DNA from: Acetivibrio cellulolyticus CD2
GTDB lineage: Bacteria > Bacillota > Clostridia > Acetivibrionales > Acetivibrionaceae
Length of the DNA stretch: 64,000 bases
Direction of reading: 5' to 3'
NCBI RefSeq assembly: GCF_000179595.2
Contig: NZ_JH556653.1
Span: forward strand, 628,495-692,494
A program made the translations under genes and the position numbers. Below the pieces are notes generated by a model, which was given only the letters and a program-made list of their open reading frames with translations, had not been told where the DNA came from and ran no database searches. This document shows positions 3,906 through 20,107 of this stretch, in pieces (the stretch's first letter is position 1; every line of letters begins with the position of its first letter).

Positions 3906-4594
3906 TCATATGTCCCCTTAAAACAATACCCAAAACCATAGGCTGTAACAATATATTTTGGATTTTTACTGTCATCTTCAATTTTTTTCCTGAGTCTGGT
4001 TATAGAAATATCTACCGTCCTGCTATCTCCATAATAGTCATATCCCCATACTCTTGTAAGAAGGTCTTCTCTTGTAAATACTCTTGAAGGATTTTTCATA
4101 AATAACTCCAACAGTTGATATTCTATTGGTGTAAGAGAAATTCTCTTATTATTTTTAAGTAAAACTTTTTCCTTTAAGTTAATGACAATATCTGAATAGC
4201 TTAAAATATCAGGATTAACATCTTTCAATCCAGTACGCCTGAGTAGTGCTTTTACTCTCACTAAAAGTTCTCTATTATCAAAAGGTTTTGTTAAGTAATC
4301 ATCTGCTCCAAGTTCTAATCCTACTATTTTGTCCACAATATCACTTTTGGCTGTAAGCATCATTATAGGAATACTACTATTGCTTCTCACCATTTTACAA
4401 ACCTCATTTCCATTTATATCAGGCAGCATTATATCAAGTATTATTAAGTCTGGCCTGAATGATTCAAAAAACCTGAGGCCGGTGTTTCCATCTCTGGCTT
4501 GTTCTACTTCATACCCTTCCCTTTTCAGGACCATTGATACCAGATTCAATATTGAAAGTTCATCATCAATAATCAAAATCTTTTTAGTCCCCAA
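3902..4594 (-). CDS. OmpR-family response regulator
   Basis: A 230-residue protein with an N-terminal receiver (KKILIIDDE, acceptor Asp in LIILDIMLPD, Lys in DYLTKPF). Its C-terminal winged helix has RVFTREDLLTRVWG and DSRTVDISITRLRKKIE. It is first in a three-gene leftward operon with its kinase and a lipoprotein. It is transcribed divergently from the MoxR operon, with about 270 nt between the start codons. It probably regulates its own operon and other envelope genes; targets cannot be read from the sequence. Confidence 0.93.
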   Translation of the reverse strand: MGTKKILIIDDELSILNLVSMVLKREGYEVEQARDGNTGLRFFESFRPDLIILDIMLPDINGNEVCKMVRSNSSIPIMMLTAKSDIVDKIVGLELGADDYLTKPFDNRELLVRVKALLRRTGLKDVNPDILSYSDIVINLKEKVLLKNNKRISLTPIEYQLLELFMKNPSRVFTREDLLTRVWGYDYYGDSRTVDISITRLRKKIEDDSKNPKYIVTAYGFGYCFKGTYE

Positions 4595-4865
4595 CTCTAC
4601 ACCTCACTATAATATCTGTAAATATATACTCCACTTCTGTATGAGAAGCAAGTTTTGCATTTATAATTATACTCGAAATTTCTTCCACATTCCACAAAAA
4701 CGCATCAAATAATCAATACGCTGAGGAGTACAAAGGACTTATTGGAAATTCCAAAACAAATTGTCAAACATTAATACATTTTTGATTTATTTACTGTTTT
4801 GTAACCATTTCAAAACAGCTTTAGTGATATAATTTAATAAAAGAAAATATAGGGGAGTGGTATTC

Positions 4866-5816
4866 ATGGAGTTAACTGAGATCAGGCGATTAATGCAAAA
4901 GGTTAAAGAGAATATCAGTCAGGTAATAGTGGGCAAAGATGATATCATCGATTTATTGCAGGTTTCACTAATTTCTTCCGGGCATGTTCTGCTAGAAGAT
5001 GTTCCGGGTACAGGTAAAACACTACTCGCTAAAGCAATGGCCAAATCACTGGACACTTCATTCAAAAGAATTCAATTCACACCAGACCTACTTCCAACAG
5101 ACTTAAGCGGTATAAATTTTTACAACCAGAAAGAAAGCATTTTCCAATTCCGACCCGGCCCGATTTTTACGAACATTCTACTTGCAGATGAGATTAACCG
5201 TGCTACCCCAAGAACTCAATCGAGTCTTCTTGAGTGTATGGAAGAAAGACAAGTCTCTATAGATGGCGAGACCAGAATGCTAAAGCAACCGTTTATGGTT
5301 GTAGCTACTCAAAACCCGATCGACACACAGGGAACGTTTCCGCTTCCGGAAGCACAACTTGACCGTTTTCTTATAAAAATTAAAATGGGATATCCTTTAA
5401 CTGATGAGGGCGTTGAGATATTAAAAAGATTCAAGGAAGAAAATCCTTTAGACAGAATTCGACCTATAGCTTCAACAAAGGATATCATTGATGCTCAAAA
5501 CAGCTATTCAAAAGTGCATGTCAGCGATGACGTTTTAAAATACATCGTGAATATTGTTGAAAAGACCAGAAACCATAAAGAAGTTATCATAGGTGTAAGT
5601 CCTCGTGGAAGCCAGGCTTTACTAAAAGCAGTGCAGGTACATGCCATATTAAAAGACCGAAGCTATGTAACTCCAGATGATATAAAGGCGCTTGCAAAAC
5701 CTGTATTATGCCATCGTCTGGTGTTAAAAGGTACAATGCTCTCAAAAGAAAATGCAGAAAAAATCATCGACCAGATTTTATGCGAAGTAGCTGTTCCAAC
5801 TGAAGAAAATTTATAA
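4866..5816 (+). CDS. MoxR-family AAA ATPase
   Basis: About 316 residues. The ATG at 4866 is preferred because AGGGGAG lies 8 nt before it; an in-frame GTG at 4857 overlaps that site. Walker A is VPGTGKTLLAKA, Walker B is ILLADEINRATPRTQSSLLE, and sensor 1 is VVATQNPIDTQGTFPLPEAQ, all diagnostic of MoxR/AAA_3. These ATPases act with DUF58 and membrane proteins as chaperones in maturing complexes or extracellular enzymes. The next gene is a DUF58 protein 15 nt downstream, the standard arrangement. Confidence 0.93.
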   Translation: MELTEIRRLMQKVKENISQVIVGKDDIIDLLQVSLISSGHVLLEDVPGTGKTLLAKAMAKSLDTSFKRIQFTPDLLPTDLSGINFYNQKESIFQFRPGPIFTNILLADEINRATPRTQSSLLECMEERQVSIDGETRMLKQPFMVVATQNPIDTQGTFPLPEAQLDRFLIKIKMGYPLTDEGVEILKRFKEENPLDRIRPIASTKDIIDAQNSYSKVHVSDDVLKYIVNIVEKTRNHKEVIIGVSPRGSQALLKAVQVHAILKDRSYVTPDDIKALAKPVLCHRLVLKGTMLSKENAEKIIDQILCEVAVPTEENL

Positions 5817-14486: not shown

Positions 14487-14686
14487 TCGTTATATTCAAA
14501 TATTGCAATATATTTTAAAGTAACGGAAATATATACATTATGGGCGGTCGTCCAACTGATGTTTATGGATATGTAATCCCATGGAACCAAAAATCTACAC
14601 CCGGATCCTAATATAACATATCAGTCTATATAATAGACATAGATAAACAAAACAATAATCTTTGTAGCATAGCCTCGAAAGTTTGA

Positions 14687-14736
14687 ATAAGGGAGTGTTG
14701 TAAAACTATTTAAATAGTTTTGCGACACTCCCTTAT
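14687..14736. repeat. 25-bp palindromic stem-loop upstream of the radical SAM gene
   Basis: 14687-14711 pairs with 14712-14736 over 25 positions, with only two G-U/C-A differences. The outer part is ATAAGGGAGTG and the centre is CTATTTAAATAG. A TATTTTTTATA tract follows 6 nt later. As no rightward gene precedes it, it could be an attenuator in the leader of the radical SAM gene or the remnant of a small mobile element. Confidence 0.65.
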
Positions 14737-14867: not shown

Positions 14868-16316
14868 ATGATTCTTGCCAAAAACAATATTATTGTTAAA
14901 ATACAAAATTCAAAAACCCCAGAATATGCTATTTTAAACCCTGTTTCGGGCAATTTTGATCTCATGGACCAACATGATTACAACCTTTATCAAAAAATAA
15001 ATGAAGGTGGAAATCCAGATAATAAATTCTCCTCTTACCTTCTAGAACGTGGGTATGCTTTCAAAAAGAAGGATGAGCTGAATGCATCAATTGATAAGGC
15101 ATATGAGGAATTCAAAAATGAGATTGGCCAATCCCATATTCAACTGATGCTTGTCCCAACGTATGGCTGTAATCTTGCCTGTACCTATTGCTTTCAGCAT
15201 GGCCTCAAAGAAGGACCTTCATTAATCTCAAAGGAAACTGTAGATGCTTTTTTTGAATATGCAAAGGCAAATTTTTCAGAGGCAGCCGTAAAGCCCTTTA
15301 TAACTTTATTCGGTGGTGAGCCTCTTGTAAATTCCCCTGCACAGAAGAGCATAACTCAATATATCATTGACAAAACCGCTGCGGAAGGTTATGAATTTGC
15401 GGCAGTAACAAACGGATATGATTTCATGGAATATGTCGATATTCTCAAAAAAGTCAGGATTAAGGAAATTCAGTTTACACTTGACGGAAGCAAAGAAATT
15501 CATGACACCAGACGTGCAACTGCCAACAAAAAAGGAACCTTCGACAAAATAATTCAAGGAATTGAAGCCGCTGTAAATAATAAAATACCGGTAAACCTGC
15601 GTTCCGTTGTGGATATGGAAAATATCAAAGATATCGTAAACCTTGCTGAATTTCTTGATAAAAAGGGCTGGCTGGACCTGCCGCCTGAGCTTTTTAAAAC
15701 CCAGATAGGCAGAAACTATGAGCTATTCGACTGTTATGCAAAACCCCAGCATCTTATGACACAGATACAACTGTGGGGGGAGTTTGCTTCTTTAAGCAAG
15801 TCCAACCCTATCCTCGCCAAATTTCACAGACCTGATTTCAAGGGTATACGTCACCTGGTAGATACAGGCGAATTATATATGTCAAGCTTTGATACATGCC
15901 CTGCATGCAAAACCGAGTGGGTATTTGACCTTTACGGCAAAATATACGGATGTACTGCCAGCTGCGGACGCGAAGAATATCTATTAGGAACCTACTGGCC
16001 TCAAATAGAACTGAATATTGATGCAATAAAAACCTGGCAGACAAGAGATGTAAAAAGCATCTCAAAATGCAGTGACTGCAAATATGATGTTATTTGCGGA
16101 GGAGGCTGCGGAGTAGTTGCTGCTAATCAAAACGACGGAAATGTTCATTCTCCTGACTGTCGCCCCATTTATGAGCTTTTGGAAACAGGAATTAACTATT
16201 ATATTGATAACATACGTAAAATGGCTATAGGAAATGAGAGAGAAGAACCTAAAATAAAAGTAAGCTGCTGTACAGACACTCATAGGAAGCATTTAACCAA
16301 CGGGAGGAATTGGTAA
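14868..16316 (+). CDS. Radical SAM/SPASM peptide-maturase-like protein
   Basis: A 482-residue protein. Residues 1-90 are a leader-recognition-like N-terminus containing LNPVSGNFDLMD. The radical SAM cluster motif CNLACTYCF is at about residue 101, with the GGEP motif in LFGGEP. The C-terminal SPASM region has many cysteines (DTCPACKTEW, GCTASCGREE, CSDCKYDVICGGGCGVV, DCRP) for auxiliary 4Fe-4S clusters. This layout is that of enzymes that modify ribosomal peptides. The tail also contains VSCC. GGAGG lies 9 nt before the ATG. A methyltransferase overlaps by 1 nt and a 35-aa Cys-rich peptide follows, a plausible substrate. An anaerobic sulfatase maturase is less likely as no sulfatase is nearby. 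Confidence 0.82.
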   Translation: MILAKNNIIVKIQNSKTPEYAILNPVSGNFDLMDQHDYNLYQKINEGGNPDNKFSSYLLERGYAFKKKDELNASIDKAYEEFKNEIGQSHIQLMLVPTYGCNLACTYCFQHGLKEGPSLISKETVDAFFEYAKANFSEAAVKPFITLFGGEPLVNSPAQKSITQYIIDKTAAEGYEFAAVTNGYDFMEYVDILKKVRIKEIQFTLDGSKEIHDTRRATANKKGTFDKIIQGIEAAVNNKIPVNLRSVVDMENIKDIVNLAEFLDKKGWLDLPPELFKTQIGRNYELFDCYAKPQHLMTQIQLWGEFASLSKSNPILAKFHRPDFKGIRHLVDTGELYMSSFDTCPACKTEWVFDLYGKIYGCTASCGREEYLLGTYWPQIELNIDAIKTWQTRDVKSISKCSDCKYDVICGGGCGVVAANQNDGNVHSPDCRPIYELLETGINYYIDNIRKMAIGNEREEPKIKVSCCTDTHRKHLTNGRNW

Positions 16317-16966
16317 TGTTAAATGAGATTCAGTCACGATATTCAAAAGAAAGAGATAATAGTTGTAATTTAAGCTGTGGAAATAATCTCGATTTTTTAA
16401 AAATATCACCCGGTGAAAATATTCTGGACTTGGGCTGTGGAAGAGGAAATGAAACAATTCAAGCTGCTATACAGACAGGACCCCATGGCAAAGCTATAGG
16501 CCTGGATATTACACAGGAAATGATTGATGTTGCACTGTCTAATGCAGAAGGAATTGGAATTTCAAATATCTGGTTTGTAAAAGGTGATATTGAAAATCTT
16601 CCCTTTGATGAAAGGATATTTGATGCTGTTATAAGTAATTGTGTTATAAATCATGCTAAAAGTAAAATAAAGGTTTACAGTGAAATTTTTAGAGTATTAA
16701 AAACAGGAGGACGGTTTGTCATTTCCGATGCTGTTACAAAGTATCCTCTTCCCTCTGAAATCAAGAATGATCCTGAAGCCTGGGCGCAATGTTTCGGAGG
16801 AGCAGTAACCGAAATAGAATACTTGGACAGTATTACATCTTCAGGTTTTAAGAATATTGAAATTTTAAAACGCAGGGAATACATTAAAAACGGTTATGAT
16901 TTTATAAGTTTAACCATAATGGCTACAAAGCAGGGTTTTGAGAGCTGCTTTGAATGTTGGTTTTAA
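16316..16966 (+). CDS. ArsM-like class I SAM-dependent methyltransferase
   Basis: About 216 residues from ATG at 16316, which shares its A with the upstream TAA; GGGAGGA is 6 nt before it. The SAM-binding motif is ILDLGCGRGNET. VISNCVINHA and AQCFGGAVTEIEYLDSI correspond to conserved ArsM blocks with active-site cysteines, and a further Cys pair lies in NSCNLSCG. The C-terminus ends CFECWF. ArsM enzymes methylate arsenite bound by cysteines. Here, beside a radical SAM enzyme and a Cys-rich peptide, the substrate could instead be a peptide thiol, or an arsenical bound to it. Family assignment is good; substrate is inference. Confidence 0.75.
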   Translation: MLNEIQSRYSKERDNSCNLSCGNNLDFLKISPGENILDLGCGRGNETIQAAIQTGPHGKAIGLDITQEMIDVALSNAEGIGISNIWFVKGDIENLPFDERIFDAVISNCVINHAKSKIKVYSEIFRVLKTGGRFVISDAVTKYPLPSEIKNDPEAWAQCFGGAVTEIEYLDSITSSGFKNIEILKRREYIKNGYDFISLTIMATKQGFESCFECWF

Positions 16967-16995
16967 AACATTTATCTCGGATTGGAGGTGAAAAA

Positions 16996-17103
16996 GTGAA
17001 AAAAGTTACCAAAAGATCCGCTTCCAATAGCTGTTGTAAAAAATTCACAACTGCTCAATGCTGTTCCAAATCTTCAAAGGTTGTGGCCGGCTGCCACGAT
17101 TAG
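16996..17103 (+). CDS. Small Cys-rich peptide, possible modified-peptide precursor
   Basis: A 35-residue frame with GTG start at 16996, preceded by the strong site GGAGGTG with 5-nt spacing, which supports real translation. It is basic at the N-terminus (KKVTKR) and has cysteines at 13, 14, 22, 23 and 33, as two CC pairs and a single GCHD end. It sits 29 nt after the methyltransferase and is followed by a hairpin at 17118-17140. It looks like the Cys-rich substrate peptides that accompany clostridial radical SAM/SPASM maturases. It could also be a small metal- or metalloid-binding peptide. Too short to identify by homology by eye. Confidence 0.6.
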   Translation: MKKVTKRSASNSCCKKFTTAQCCSKSSKVVAGCHD

Positions 17104-17117
17104 AATTTATGTCTGTG

Positions 17118-17140
17118 GAGGCGGCAGTAAAAGCCGCCTC
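17118..17140 (+). terminator. GC-rich hairpin after the Cys-rich peptide gene
   Basis: GAGGCGGC (17118-17125) pairs exactly with GCCGCCTC (17133-17140), loop AGTAAAA. The following TATTACAAAA has no strong T-run, so termination may be partial, letting the operon read into the thioredoxin fusion gene. Confidence 0.55.
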
Positions 17141-17296
17141 TATTACAAAACACTTCTAAAAAATGTTATCTTAGTACACGTTATTTTTACCCGCACGGAT
17201 ATATAAATCTTATTAAAAGTATCCATATTGTTAATAATATTGAAAGTAATCAAATTCAGTAAAATTCAACAAACAATCTATGAGAGGATGTTTTTA

Positions 17297-18583
17297 ATGA
17301 GTGAAAAAATACTGCATATTAACTCGGATGAATTTGAAAGTATAGTTACAAAAAGCGACATTCCGGTCATTGTGGACTTCTATTCGGAAGATTGCGCTCC
17401 ATGTGAAGTATTAGCCCCTATTTATGAAAAAATGGCTGAAAAATATGGAGGTCATATAAAGTTTGTAAAAATTCTGCGTCAAGCAAACCGCAATTTTGCT
17501 AAAAGTCTTAACGTTTCAAGCAGTCCAACCGTTCTTTTCTACAAAAACGGTAAGGAAGTTGGCACAAGATTAAATGGCTTTATGAACAAACCCCAGGTTC
17601 GACAGGCAATTGAAGAAATTCTTGGCGATGTTATTCCAAAGGAAGATATGAAACGCGTGGACTGCGATGTTCTTATTCTTGGTGCAGGTGCTGCCGGACT
17701 TTCAGCCGCAATATATGCCTCAAGGGCAAATATGAATACTGTAATTATTGACGAAAGTGTACCCGGAGGGCAAACAGCTTCAACCTATCATGTAGCAAAT
17801 TATCCAGGTACGCCAGGCGTCGTAAGAGGAAAGGAAATTATCAATAATATGCGGGAACAGGCAAAATCCTTCCGCGCAAGAATTGACGATCTGAAAGAGA
17901 TTGCCCAAGTAAATCTAAATGATAAAATAAAATATGTTCGTACAGAAGATACCGAATATTATGCTAAAGCTTTAATAATTGCTTCCGGAGCAAAGCCACG
18001 GGCTCTCCCTGCCGAGCAAGCTGATGAATTCAAAGGCCGCGGAGTACATTATTGCGCAACATGTGACGGTTCCATGTACCAGGACAGAAAAATCGTAGTT
18101 GTGGGGGGAGGAAATTCAGCGGTTGAAGAAGCTGTATTCCTTACAAAGTTTGCTTCCCATGTCACTATCATTCACCAGTTCGACAATTTTCAGGCATCAA
18201 AAACAGCCCAGGAAGAGGCTTTCAAGAACCCGAAAATTGATATTATCTGGGATTCTGAGGTACGAAAAGTAAATGGACAGGGACATGCACTTACCAGTGT
18301 AGTTATAGAAAATCTGAAAACAAAGGAACTATCCGAAGTACCTACCGAAGGAGCTTTTGTATATATTGGAACCGAACCAATGTCAAAAATGTATGAAGGA
18401 CAGTTGGAAATTGACAAATGGGGTTATATCGTAGCCGCTGAAGATACTAAAACCAGTATTGATGGAGTATTTGCAGCAGGTGACATAAGGACAAAACTCA
18501 TTCGTCAGGTGGTCACAGCAGCATCTGATGGAGCTATAGCAGGAATCATGGCCGAAAGATATGTAGTAAGCAACAAATCATGA
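17297..18583 (+). CDS. Thioredoxin-thioredoxin reductase fusion
   Basis: About 428 residues from ATG at 17297 (GAGAGG about 9 nt upstream). Residues 1-105 are a thioredoxin fold with active site DCAPC rather than the usual CGPC. From about residue 120 it is a low-molecular-weight flavoprotein disulfide reductase: FAD motif GAGAAGLSAAIYASRA, redox pair CATCDG, NAD(P)H motif VVGGGNSAVEEAVFL, and GVFAAGDIRTKLIRQ near the end. The fusion delivers electrons from NAD(P)H directly to a dedicated thioredoxin. It lies downstream of the radical SAM cassette and may keep its Cys-rich product or metalloid substrate reduced. General thiol redox is the alternative. Confidence 0.88.
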   Translation: MSEKILHINSDEFESIVTKSDIPVIVDFYSEDCAPCEVLAPIYEKMAEKYGGHIKFVKILRQANRNFAKSLNVSSSPTVLFYKNGKEVGTRLNGFMNKPQVRQAIEEILGDVIPKEDMKRVDCDVLILGAGAAGLSAAIYASRANMNTVIIDESVPGGQTASTYHVANYPGTPGVVRGKEIINNMREQAKSFRARIDDLKEIAQVNLNDKIKYVRTEDTEYYAKALIIASGAKPRALPAEQADEFKGRGVHYCATCDGSMYQDRKIVVVGGGNSAVEEAVFLTKFASHVTIIHQFDNFQASKTAQEEAFKNPKIDIIWDSEVRKVNGQGHALTSVVIENLKTKELSEVPTEGAFVYIGTEPMSKMYEGQLEIDKWGYIVAAEDTKTSIDGVFAAGDIRTKLIRQVVTAASDGAIAGIMAERYVVSNKS

Positions 18584-18669: not shown

Positions 18670-18799
18670 TTTTTATTCCGCCTCTTTCGAACGAAGTGAA
18701 AGAGGCAAAAACAGAGGGACTCGATGTCCCGGAGTTTTTATTCAGCCTCTTTCGAATTGAATGAAAGAGGCTAAAACGAAGGAACTCGATGTTCCTGAG
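18670..18799. repeat. Two tandem copies of a 65-nt interspersed repeat
   Basis: Copy 1 is 18670-18734 and copy 2 is 18735-18799, each 65 nt. Each starts TTTTTATTC, contains a hairpin GCCTCTTTC...GAAAGAGGC, then an ACTCGATG motif flanked by short inverted bases. A third diverged copy, inverted, lies at 49885-49946. They sit between convergent genes and the hairpins may aid termination. Confidence 0.8.
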
Positions 18800-18810
18800 T
18801 CTCCGCCGCC

Positions 18811-19960: not shown

Positions 19961-20107
19961 ATGTTTACACTTACGCTTAACGAAAAGGAAGTCGATCTTT
20001 TAAAAAAATCTATAAACCATTGTCTCCAAACCTGCAAGGATGGGGGCCCTGAAGATGGTTGTACTGATTGCGCAGCCATTAAAGGTGTACTAAATAGACT
20101 TCCGTAA
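19961..20107 (+). CDS. Small conserved Cys-containing protein
   Basis: A 48-residue frame, ATG at 19961, preceded by CAGGAAGG at about 10 nt. It begins MFTLTLNEKEVDLLKKSI, followed by CLQTCKDGGPEDGCTDC, giving two Cys pairs (CxxxC and CxxC) able to hold a metal or disulfides. A strong terminator follows at 20121-20157, supporting an independent short transcript. Such small Cys proteins occur in clostridia, but no function is known to me. Confidence 0.6.
   Translation: MFTLTLNEKEVDLLKKSINHCLQTCKDGGPEDGCTDCAAIKGVLNRLP

Follow-up and report, generated by a model that had tools for sequence, protein, structure and literature searches.

Does the 35-codon open reading frame (ORF) at positions 16996..17103 of the 64,000-nucleotide stretch of Acetivibrio cellulolyticus CD2 DNA analysed here (contig NZ_JH556653.1, positions 628,495 to 692,494; hereafter the window) encode the precursor of a modified peptide, and do the enzyme genes around it form one pathway with it? 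To judge from sequence, we conclude that it belongs to a new cassette of the kind that makes ribosomally synthesized and post-translationally modified peptides (RiPPs), a variant of known RiPP pathways. The cassette joins a radical S-adenosylmethionine (SAM)/SPASM enzyme, an ArsM-type SAM methyltransferase, a 35-residue precursor-like peptide and a thioredoxin-thioredoxin reductase (Trx-TrxR) fusion. Gene conservation, linkage, the fold match of the radical SAM enzyme and conserved catalytic motifs are observed directly. That the cassette is real is close to certain, and its mature product is probably an intracellular thiol peptide.

All four genes lie on the forward strand, in the order radical SAM enzyme, methyltransferase, peptide, Trx-TrxR. 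The radical SAM/SPASM gene (14868..16316, 482 residues), whose product resembles RiPP maturases, ends with TAA at 16314-16316, and base 16316 is common to this stop and to the ATG (16316-16318) of the methyltransferase gene (16316..16966), which bears out the one-base overlap claimed in an earlier note on this DNA. Also as claimed there, a strong ribosome-binding site, GGAGGTGA (about 16983..16990, read from sequence), stands ahead of the peptide gene, which runs from GTG 16996 to TAG 17101-17103 and encodes cysteines at residues 13, 14, 22, 23 and 33, and a Trx-TrxR fusion gene with its stop at 18583 is present 3' of it. The most likely start of this fusion (17297..18583, 428 residues) is ATG 17297, which gives a length as in relatives, rather than the TTG 17228 of the longest ORF. 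In most relatives, including loci L039, L040 and L042, the peptide gene lies between the methyltransferase and radical SAM genes.

The 35-codon ORF is, by its conservation, a real gene: chance is ruled out because conserved homologues of the peptide adjoin the same enzymes. Among the short ORFs listed around homologous enzymes of the same order, the same peptide is found in L039, L040 and L042, with 91, 80 and 63% identity (L041 is cut by a contig end and thus falls outside this comparison). In an alignment of 29 peptides, a hand-picked subset from which near-duplicates and the odd short peptide of L068 were left out, nine columns are identical in all 29: M1, A20, Q21, C22, C23, K25, G32, C33 and H34. 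The core, AQCC[SA]Kx[SA]xxxxGCH[DN], lies at the C-terminus and is kept in the window's peptide. Precursors are mostly 31-43 residues long and have three to six cysteines, the universal ones being only 22, 23 and 33. As a conserved feature, the pair at 13 and 14 named in the earlier note did not hold up: it is missing in Bacteroidales and spirochaete peptides and is therefore unlikely to be a working part. The peptide family is new to the databases searched, given that four peptides matched 0 NCBIfam families, the Pfam search, made with the window's peptide only, gave BTK at 14.5 bits (under the cut-off of 24), and no relatives were found in the PDB at E 10.

Between the window and L039, the peptide genes present 17 base differences, 14 of them at third positions, with nonsynonymous (dN) and synonymous (dS) divergences of 0.05 and 1.12, dS being saturated in 13 of the 21 peptide gene pairs compared. 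Purifying selection on the gene is evident. GGAGG-type ribosome sites precede most, though not all, homologous peptide ORFs. Directly 3' of the window's peptide stop lies a predicted stem-loop (17115..17143, forward strand; minimum free energy -21.9, z -5.2). Since no T-run comes after it, it is more likely to stabilise or attenuate than to terminate. Structure with z <= -2 follows the peptide gene in 32 of 59 loci, in comparison with 2/59 after the methyltransferase, 4/58 after the radical SAM enzyme and 12/59 after Trx/TrxR (counts without ten loci that were near-duplicates, lone copies or fragments). That the gene is real is supported both by purifying selection and by the stem-loop, which follows the stop in about half of the loci.

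The linkage was assessed by scanning a species-genome collection with an alignment of the radical SAM enzymes, which yielded at least 22 close loci with 39-72% identity (L047-L068, L047 being L040 again). Among the matches listed, the peptide adjoins the radical SAM gene in 21 of 22 loci, so that the conservation beside homologous enzymes on which the earlier note had made its proposal depend is found; the methyltransferase is present in 22 of 22, as is a Trx/TrxR match (in L063, the Trx part only). The next radical SAM match listed, L069 (29% identity), is without any partner. According to the genome records, the loci, many of them metagenome-assembled, are distributed among Bacillota, Bacteroidota, Myxococcota and Spirochaetota. 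Among the matches listed, the hosts in Bacillota include Sinanaerobacter chloroacetimidivorans and Desulfosporosinus metallidurans, and Anaeromyxobacter is also a host. The near-fixed core, shared by Clostridia, Anaeromyxobacter, Bacteroidales and spirochaetes, therefore favours a cellular function over warfare.

Searches with the peptide gave matches in 20 of 398 genomes from the phylum, one of them the window's own, and in 6 of 197 relatives; among Bacteroidota, 4 of 198 genomes matched, and in the Anaeromyxobacter order 19 of 117. From this order, 18 of 21 matches were taken, the others being L056 and L063 (by coordinates) and a match of 72 bases where a contig ends. The peptide-found loci, with the own genome and loci already in the set left out, amount to 44, of which 40 have the methyltransferase, 39 the radical SAM enzyme and 39 Trx/TrxR, as scored by cassette hidden Markov models whose training set included many of the scored loci, though none of L184-L208. 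Incomplete loci on contigs shorter than 8.2 kb are L192, L199, L204, L206 and L207, and L150 shows no Trx/TrxR within 12 kb. Few genomes have more than one peptide. The median gap between matched stretches is 51 bases for peptide and methyltransferase (61 loci) and 67 bases for peptide and radical SAM enzyme (60 loci). The distance matrices of the peptide, the methyltransferase, the radical SAM enzyme and TrxR correlate with r of 0.77-0.92 over 35 loci (near-duplicates and L063 left out), values reached in 0 of 2000 permutations. Such correlation is expected given the four parts form a unit, and shared species history contributes to it.

In the other genomes searched from the genus and family to which the window belongs, the peptide was not found, and this patchy spread suggests horizontal transfer or frequent loss. 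Plasmid carriage was considered and rejected, as no plasmid record has the radical SAM enzyme at E 1e-30. In the literature searched, which leaves most subscription journals outside, no description of the cassette was found; absence from print is not claimed.

The radical SAM enzyme matches Pfam Radical_SAM with 83.5 bits, and among the best 25 of 74 NCBIfam models none reaches its cut-off for the window's enzyme; the same outcome was obtained with the enzymes of L056 and L061. The closest PDB protein by profile is CteB (5wgg, profile 9-424 on chain 7-427). An AlphaFold model (mean predicted local distance difference test score, pLDDT, 89.8) has CteB as its best Foldseek match (E 1.4e-19). When superposed with VIA-align, the model presents a Z of 26.8 and a root-mean-square deviation (rmsd) of 3.6 over 380 aligned residues with CteB 5why (model residues 4-447), and a Z of 21.7 and an rmsd of 4.6 over 391 with TigE (model residues 1-453). 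The CxxxCxxC motif is present in 44 of 45 radical SAM sequences, and C344, C362, C401, C404, C410, C414 and C431 in 45 of 45. At the N-terminus, strands 8-12, 19-24 and 29-34 are followed by helices, residues before 83 being barely probed by the fold match. These values indicate near end-to-end resemblance to RiPP maturases, which agrees with the kinship to clostridial maturases of Cys-rich peptides drawn in the earlier note, yet the cassette occurs in four phyla and is not merely clostridial. Given that the genes are linked, that the enzyme matches maturases and that the peptide core is conserved, this enzyme very probably modifies the peptide, which would be its substrate.

In comparison with known systems, the enzyme is of the SPASM type, like CteB, the maturase of SCIFF (TIGR03974) and its best structural match, and PapB (NF047865), yet it scores under both ranthipeptide cut-offs (84.6 vs 425, and 113.9 vs 340). 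SCIFF peptides have a six-cysteine pattern, whereas the cassette peptides have three to six cysteines and an AQCC...GCH[DN] core, and the cassette adds the methyltransferase and Trx-TrxR. The best-scoring NCBIfam models are named maturases of Cys-rich peptides: TIGR04463 'rSAM_vs_C_rich', the top model (155.4 bits vs a cut-off of 525), and CefB (NF038107; 145.8 vs 600). The mycofactocin and PQQ (pyrroloquinoline quinone) pathways also combine a conserved short precursor with a radical SAM enzyme and dedicated oxidoreductases. Their core differs, however, and the Anaeromyxobacter radical SAM enzyme scores 47.8 vs 265 on TIGR03962 (mycofactocin radical SAM).

The methyltransferase has its best PDB matches among arsenic and arsenite methyltransferases. 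Its C23, C111 and C161 (numbered in the ORF from TTG 16310) are kept in 44 of 44 sequences and align with C72, C174 and C224 of CmArsM (4fr0), which we take to be the As(III) ligands of that enzyme. It thus combines all three metalloid-type cysteines with a SAM-methyltransferase profile, although, unlike ArsM, it is about 205-235 residues long and linked to a peptide and a SPASM enzyme nearly everywhere it was found. In arsenite methylation, thioredoxin and thioredoxin reductase act as the reductant. The arsenosugar (ArsM/ArsS) and arsinothricin (ArsM/ArsL) pathways pair ArsM with a radical SAM enzyme, but in the cassette that enzyme is SPASM-type and a peptide gene is present, and the methyltransferase is far under the cut-offs of the corresponding ArsM models (97.5 vs 400, and 128.4 vs 500). 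At the genome level, with the Acr3, selD and peptide searches taken as one draw of 398 genomes, the Acr3 arsenite exporter is over its cut-off in 17 of 20 peptide-positive and 157 of 378 other genomes (Fisher p 1.3e-4). Because of the three cysteines, the fitting reductant and this Acr3 excess, a role with arsenic-like metalloids is tentatively proposed, its likelihood being somewhat below even. For ArsM-like methyltransferases, the cassette opens a possible role other than acting on free arsenite.

The TrxR part of the fusion scores 346 bits on TIGR01292, over the cut-off of 343.45, and the Trx part matches PF00085 Thioredoxin. The CxxC motif is kept in 41 of 43 Trx and 43 of 43 TrxR sequences; in L056, as in 14 of another 18 loci from its order, Trx and TrxR match separately. 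By its recurrence, Trx-TrxR is a core part of the cassette and not just a neighbour, and so a dedicated thioredoxin system would be tied to a RiPP.

The neighbour scan covered 195 of 214 proteins, each of at least 110 residues and within about 5.2 kb, with near-duplicate loci left out, and families were tallied in two batches of 90 and 105 proteins (best 25 of 89 and best 25 of 149 families). No RiPP peptidase is among the 25 families listed per batch, and ABC_tran matches 2/90 and 2/105 proteins. Given the core is constant across phyla and no exporter or peptidase recurs among the listed neighbour families, the product probably stays inside the cell.

A RiPP-type mechanism with an intracellular thiol product, possibly linked to a metalloid, is the overall reading towards which we lean, on balance. 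The precursor would be made at a high level, in view of its strong ribosome site and the stem-loop after its stop. Its short basic N-terminus would act as the leader and bind to the N-terminal part of the radical SAM/SPASM enzyme; in CteB, the first part of the enzyme binds the leader peptide. The enzyme would act on the three-cysteine core, AQCC[SA]Kx(6)GCH[DN]; by analogy with maturases of the CteB and PapB type, the change would most likely involve a cysteine or an adjoining position, and in the window's peptide it would be expected within AQCCSKSSKVVAGCHD. Both the leader binding and the kind of modification we infer. The methyl acceptor of the methyltransferase would be either a thiol of the peptide or a trivalent metalloid, for example As(III), that the peptide holds, and the dedicated Trx-TrxR would maintain the thiols of peptide and enzymes in reduced form. 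Remaining in the cell, the product would act as a dedicated thiol ligand or redox carrier, arsenic-like soft elements being its most likely partners. A more specific version, in which the pathway is built around a metalloid, with arsenic or another trivalent metalloid held by the three peptide cysteines while the ArsM-type enzyme and the radical SAM enzyme act, is unlikely. Its outcome may be a modified peptide bearing arsenic or a methylarsenical, or metalloid methylation scaffolded by the peptide.

Several observations weigh against this favoured reading. L057 has the enzymes but no detectable peptide in 9.8 kb, and L189 and L208 have a peptide without the enzymes, both of these genomes also carrying a full cassette. 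The stem-loop is weak or absent in 27 of 59 loci, Bacteroidales included. The methyltransferase reaches 212.5 bits on the arsenite methyltransferase model NF008823, under its cut-off of 263. The Acr3 excess shrinks within the same families, where 17 of 20 peptide-positive genomes compare with 15 of 26 that lack the peptide (p 0.059, from a table compiled by hand from the listings). An ars-operon context was rejected, as few ars genes are among the listed neighbour families: ArsR-type HTH_5 accounts for 2/90 and ArsP_1 for 3/90 neighbours, and neither is among the families listed for the other 105. Finally, if the radical SAM enzyme forms thioethers, fewer thiols would be left for a metalloid.

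Part of this evidence fits a peptide that becomes a redox cofactor, the radical SAM enzyme and methyltransferase modifying it (S-methylation included) and Trx-TrxR serving as its cognate reductase, with no metalloid involved. The C-terminal core is nearly invariant across four phyla, unlike that of a diversifying antibiotic, Trx/TrxR accompanies all 22 listed radical SAM-seeded loci and 39 of the 44 peptide-found ones, and the listed neighbours repeatedly include iron-sulfur and pyridine nucleotide-disulfide oxidoreductase families. A plain peptide methyltransferase, however, leaves the three arsenic-type cysteines in 44 of 44 sequences unexplained, and a distribution as patchy as 6/197 relatives is unusual for a core cofactor, so we regard this explanation as rather doubtful. 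Those same three cysteines of the methyltransferase, together with the invariant Cys 22, 23 and 33 of the peptide, could also mean that the unmodified peptide is a metallochaperone that gives an As(III) three-thiol complex to the methyltransferase, the radical SAM enzyme acting on the methylated arsenical or another molecule. ArsS and ArsL are precedents of radical SAM enzymes that act on arsenicals. Yet the enzyme of the cassette matches peptide maturases near end to end, and no arsenosugar or arsinothricin radical SAM model is among the best 25 of 74 NCBIfam models, which makes the metallochaperone improbable.

We consider it similarly improbable that the system serves sulfur or selenium trafficking, with a peptide that carries a persulfide or selenium and is fed by DUF1847 with rhodanese, TauE-like and DUF5714 neighbours. 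Rhodanese and DUF1847 are indeed among the neighbours, a free DUF5714 gene in Desulfosporosinus stands (by eye) beside DUF1847 and YedE-, TusA- and DUF3343-like genes, the lone peptide copy of L189 adjoins DUF1847- and DUF302-like genes, and selD lies right upstream of the peptide in L154. Nevertheless, selD is over its cut-off in 15 of 20 peptide-positive vs 247 of 378 other genomes (p 0.47). Selenium dependence was rejected for want of a selD excess, and the five cassette genomes without selD over the cut-off argue that selenium is not required. An exported antimicrobial RiPP (bacteriocin) would account for a short Cys-rich precursor adjoining a SPASM maturase, an arrangement common to many ranthipeptides and sactipeptides, but is highly improbable: the core is nearly identical across phyla, no peptidase or exporter recurs among the listed neighbour families, and, with few exceptions, a genome has a single peptide.

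The cassette also provides a context for DUF5714, DUF1847 and DUF302. Of the 195 neighbour proteins, 8 match DUF1847 and 8 match DUF302 (5/90 and 3/105 each), and rhodanese families are also present. A C-terminal DUF5714 is fused to the radical SAM enzyme in eight loci (L039, L040, L041 and L048-L052; confirmed with Pfam for L039 and L040) and is a separate neighbour in L147, L148, L150 and L158-L165. The window's radical SAM enzyme is without it. The window's genome has one DUF5714 match, located in a broken second copy of the radical SAM-DUF5714 gene (L043 4407-5708, contig C1), whose DUF5714 part is stop-free over model positions 3-215 of 231. By eye, this broken copy adjoins genes resembling lgt and a TauE-type exporter. 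Among the tested cassette genomes without a nearby DUF5714, 7 of 13 have it elsewhere. NCBIfam MbdU, 'metal-binding double selenoprotein', matches the domain below its own cut-off. A sequence search of the PDB found no relative of DUF5714 (best E 0.14), and Foldseek gave 0 matches at E <= 0.001. The best VIA-align 2 result, to proteins of the cis-aconitate decarboxylase and 2-methylcitrate dehydratase type, was Z 6.4 with rmsd 4.1 over 137 aligned residues, a Z within the tool's warning range on which no fold is claimed.

Several further gene arrangements were noted. In Desulfosporosinus (L217 3153-7905), the free DUF5714 gene lies, by eye, between the DUF1847-like gene and the run of YedE-, TusA-, DUF3343- and class V aminotransferase-like genes. 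The selD gene of L154 (about 4603-5622, genome G344) has an in-frame TGA and is directly upstream of the peptide. The lone second peptide copy of L189 (6018-7184, Bacteroidales) is followed by the DUF1847- and DUF302-like genes, and that of L208 (6024-6125, Desulfosporosinus metallidurans) is near coiled-coil-like, DUF134-like and NifU-like genes (by eye). In a genome of the same family as the window's, L044 has a distinct system of Cys-rich peptides: two very similar CCDQ-repeat peptides (4135-4317 and 4634-4786) beside radical SAM enzymes that share 31-34% identity with the window's.

Past the 3' end of the Trx-TrxR fusion, a conserved ORF of 47-54 residues with a CxxxC and CxxC-like pattern is found in five loci of the order (window 19961-20107; L039 11968-12114; L040 5582-5746; L041 3292-3438; L042 649-792). 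For the copy in the window, NCBIfam gave no match and Pfam none over the cut-off. The sole Rfam match is a thiamine pyrophosphate (TPP) riboswitch, far from the cassette. Seen by eye in the window, a long inverted repeat (14680-14733) lies 5' of the radical SAM gene, and two tandem hairpin units (18680-18800) lie 3' of the TrxR gene.

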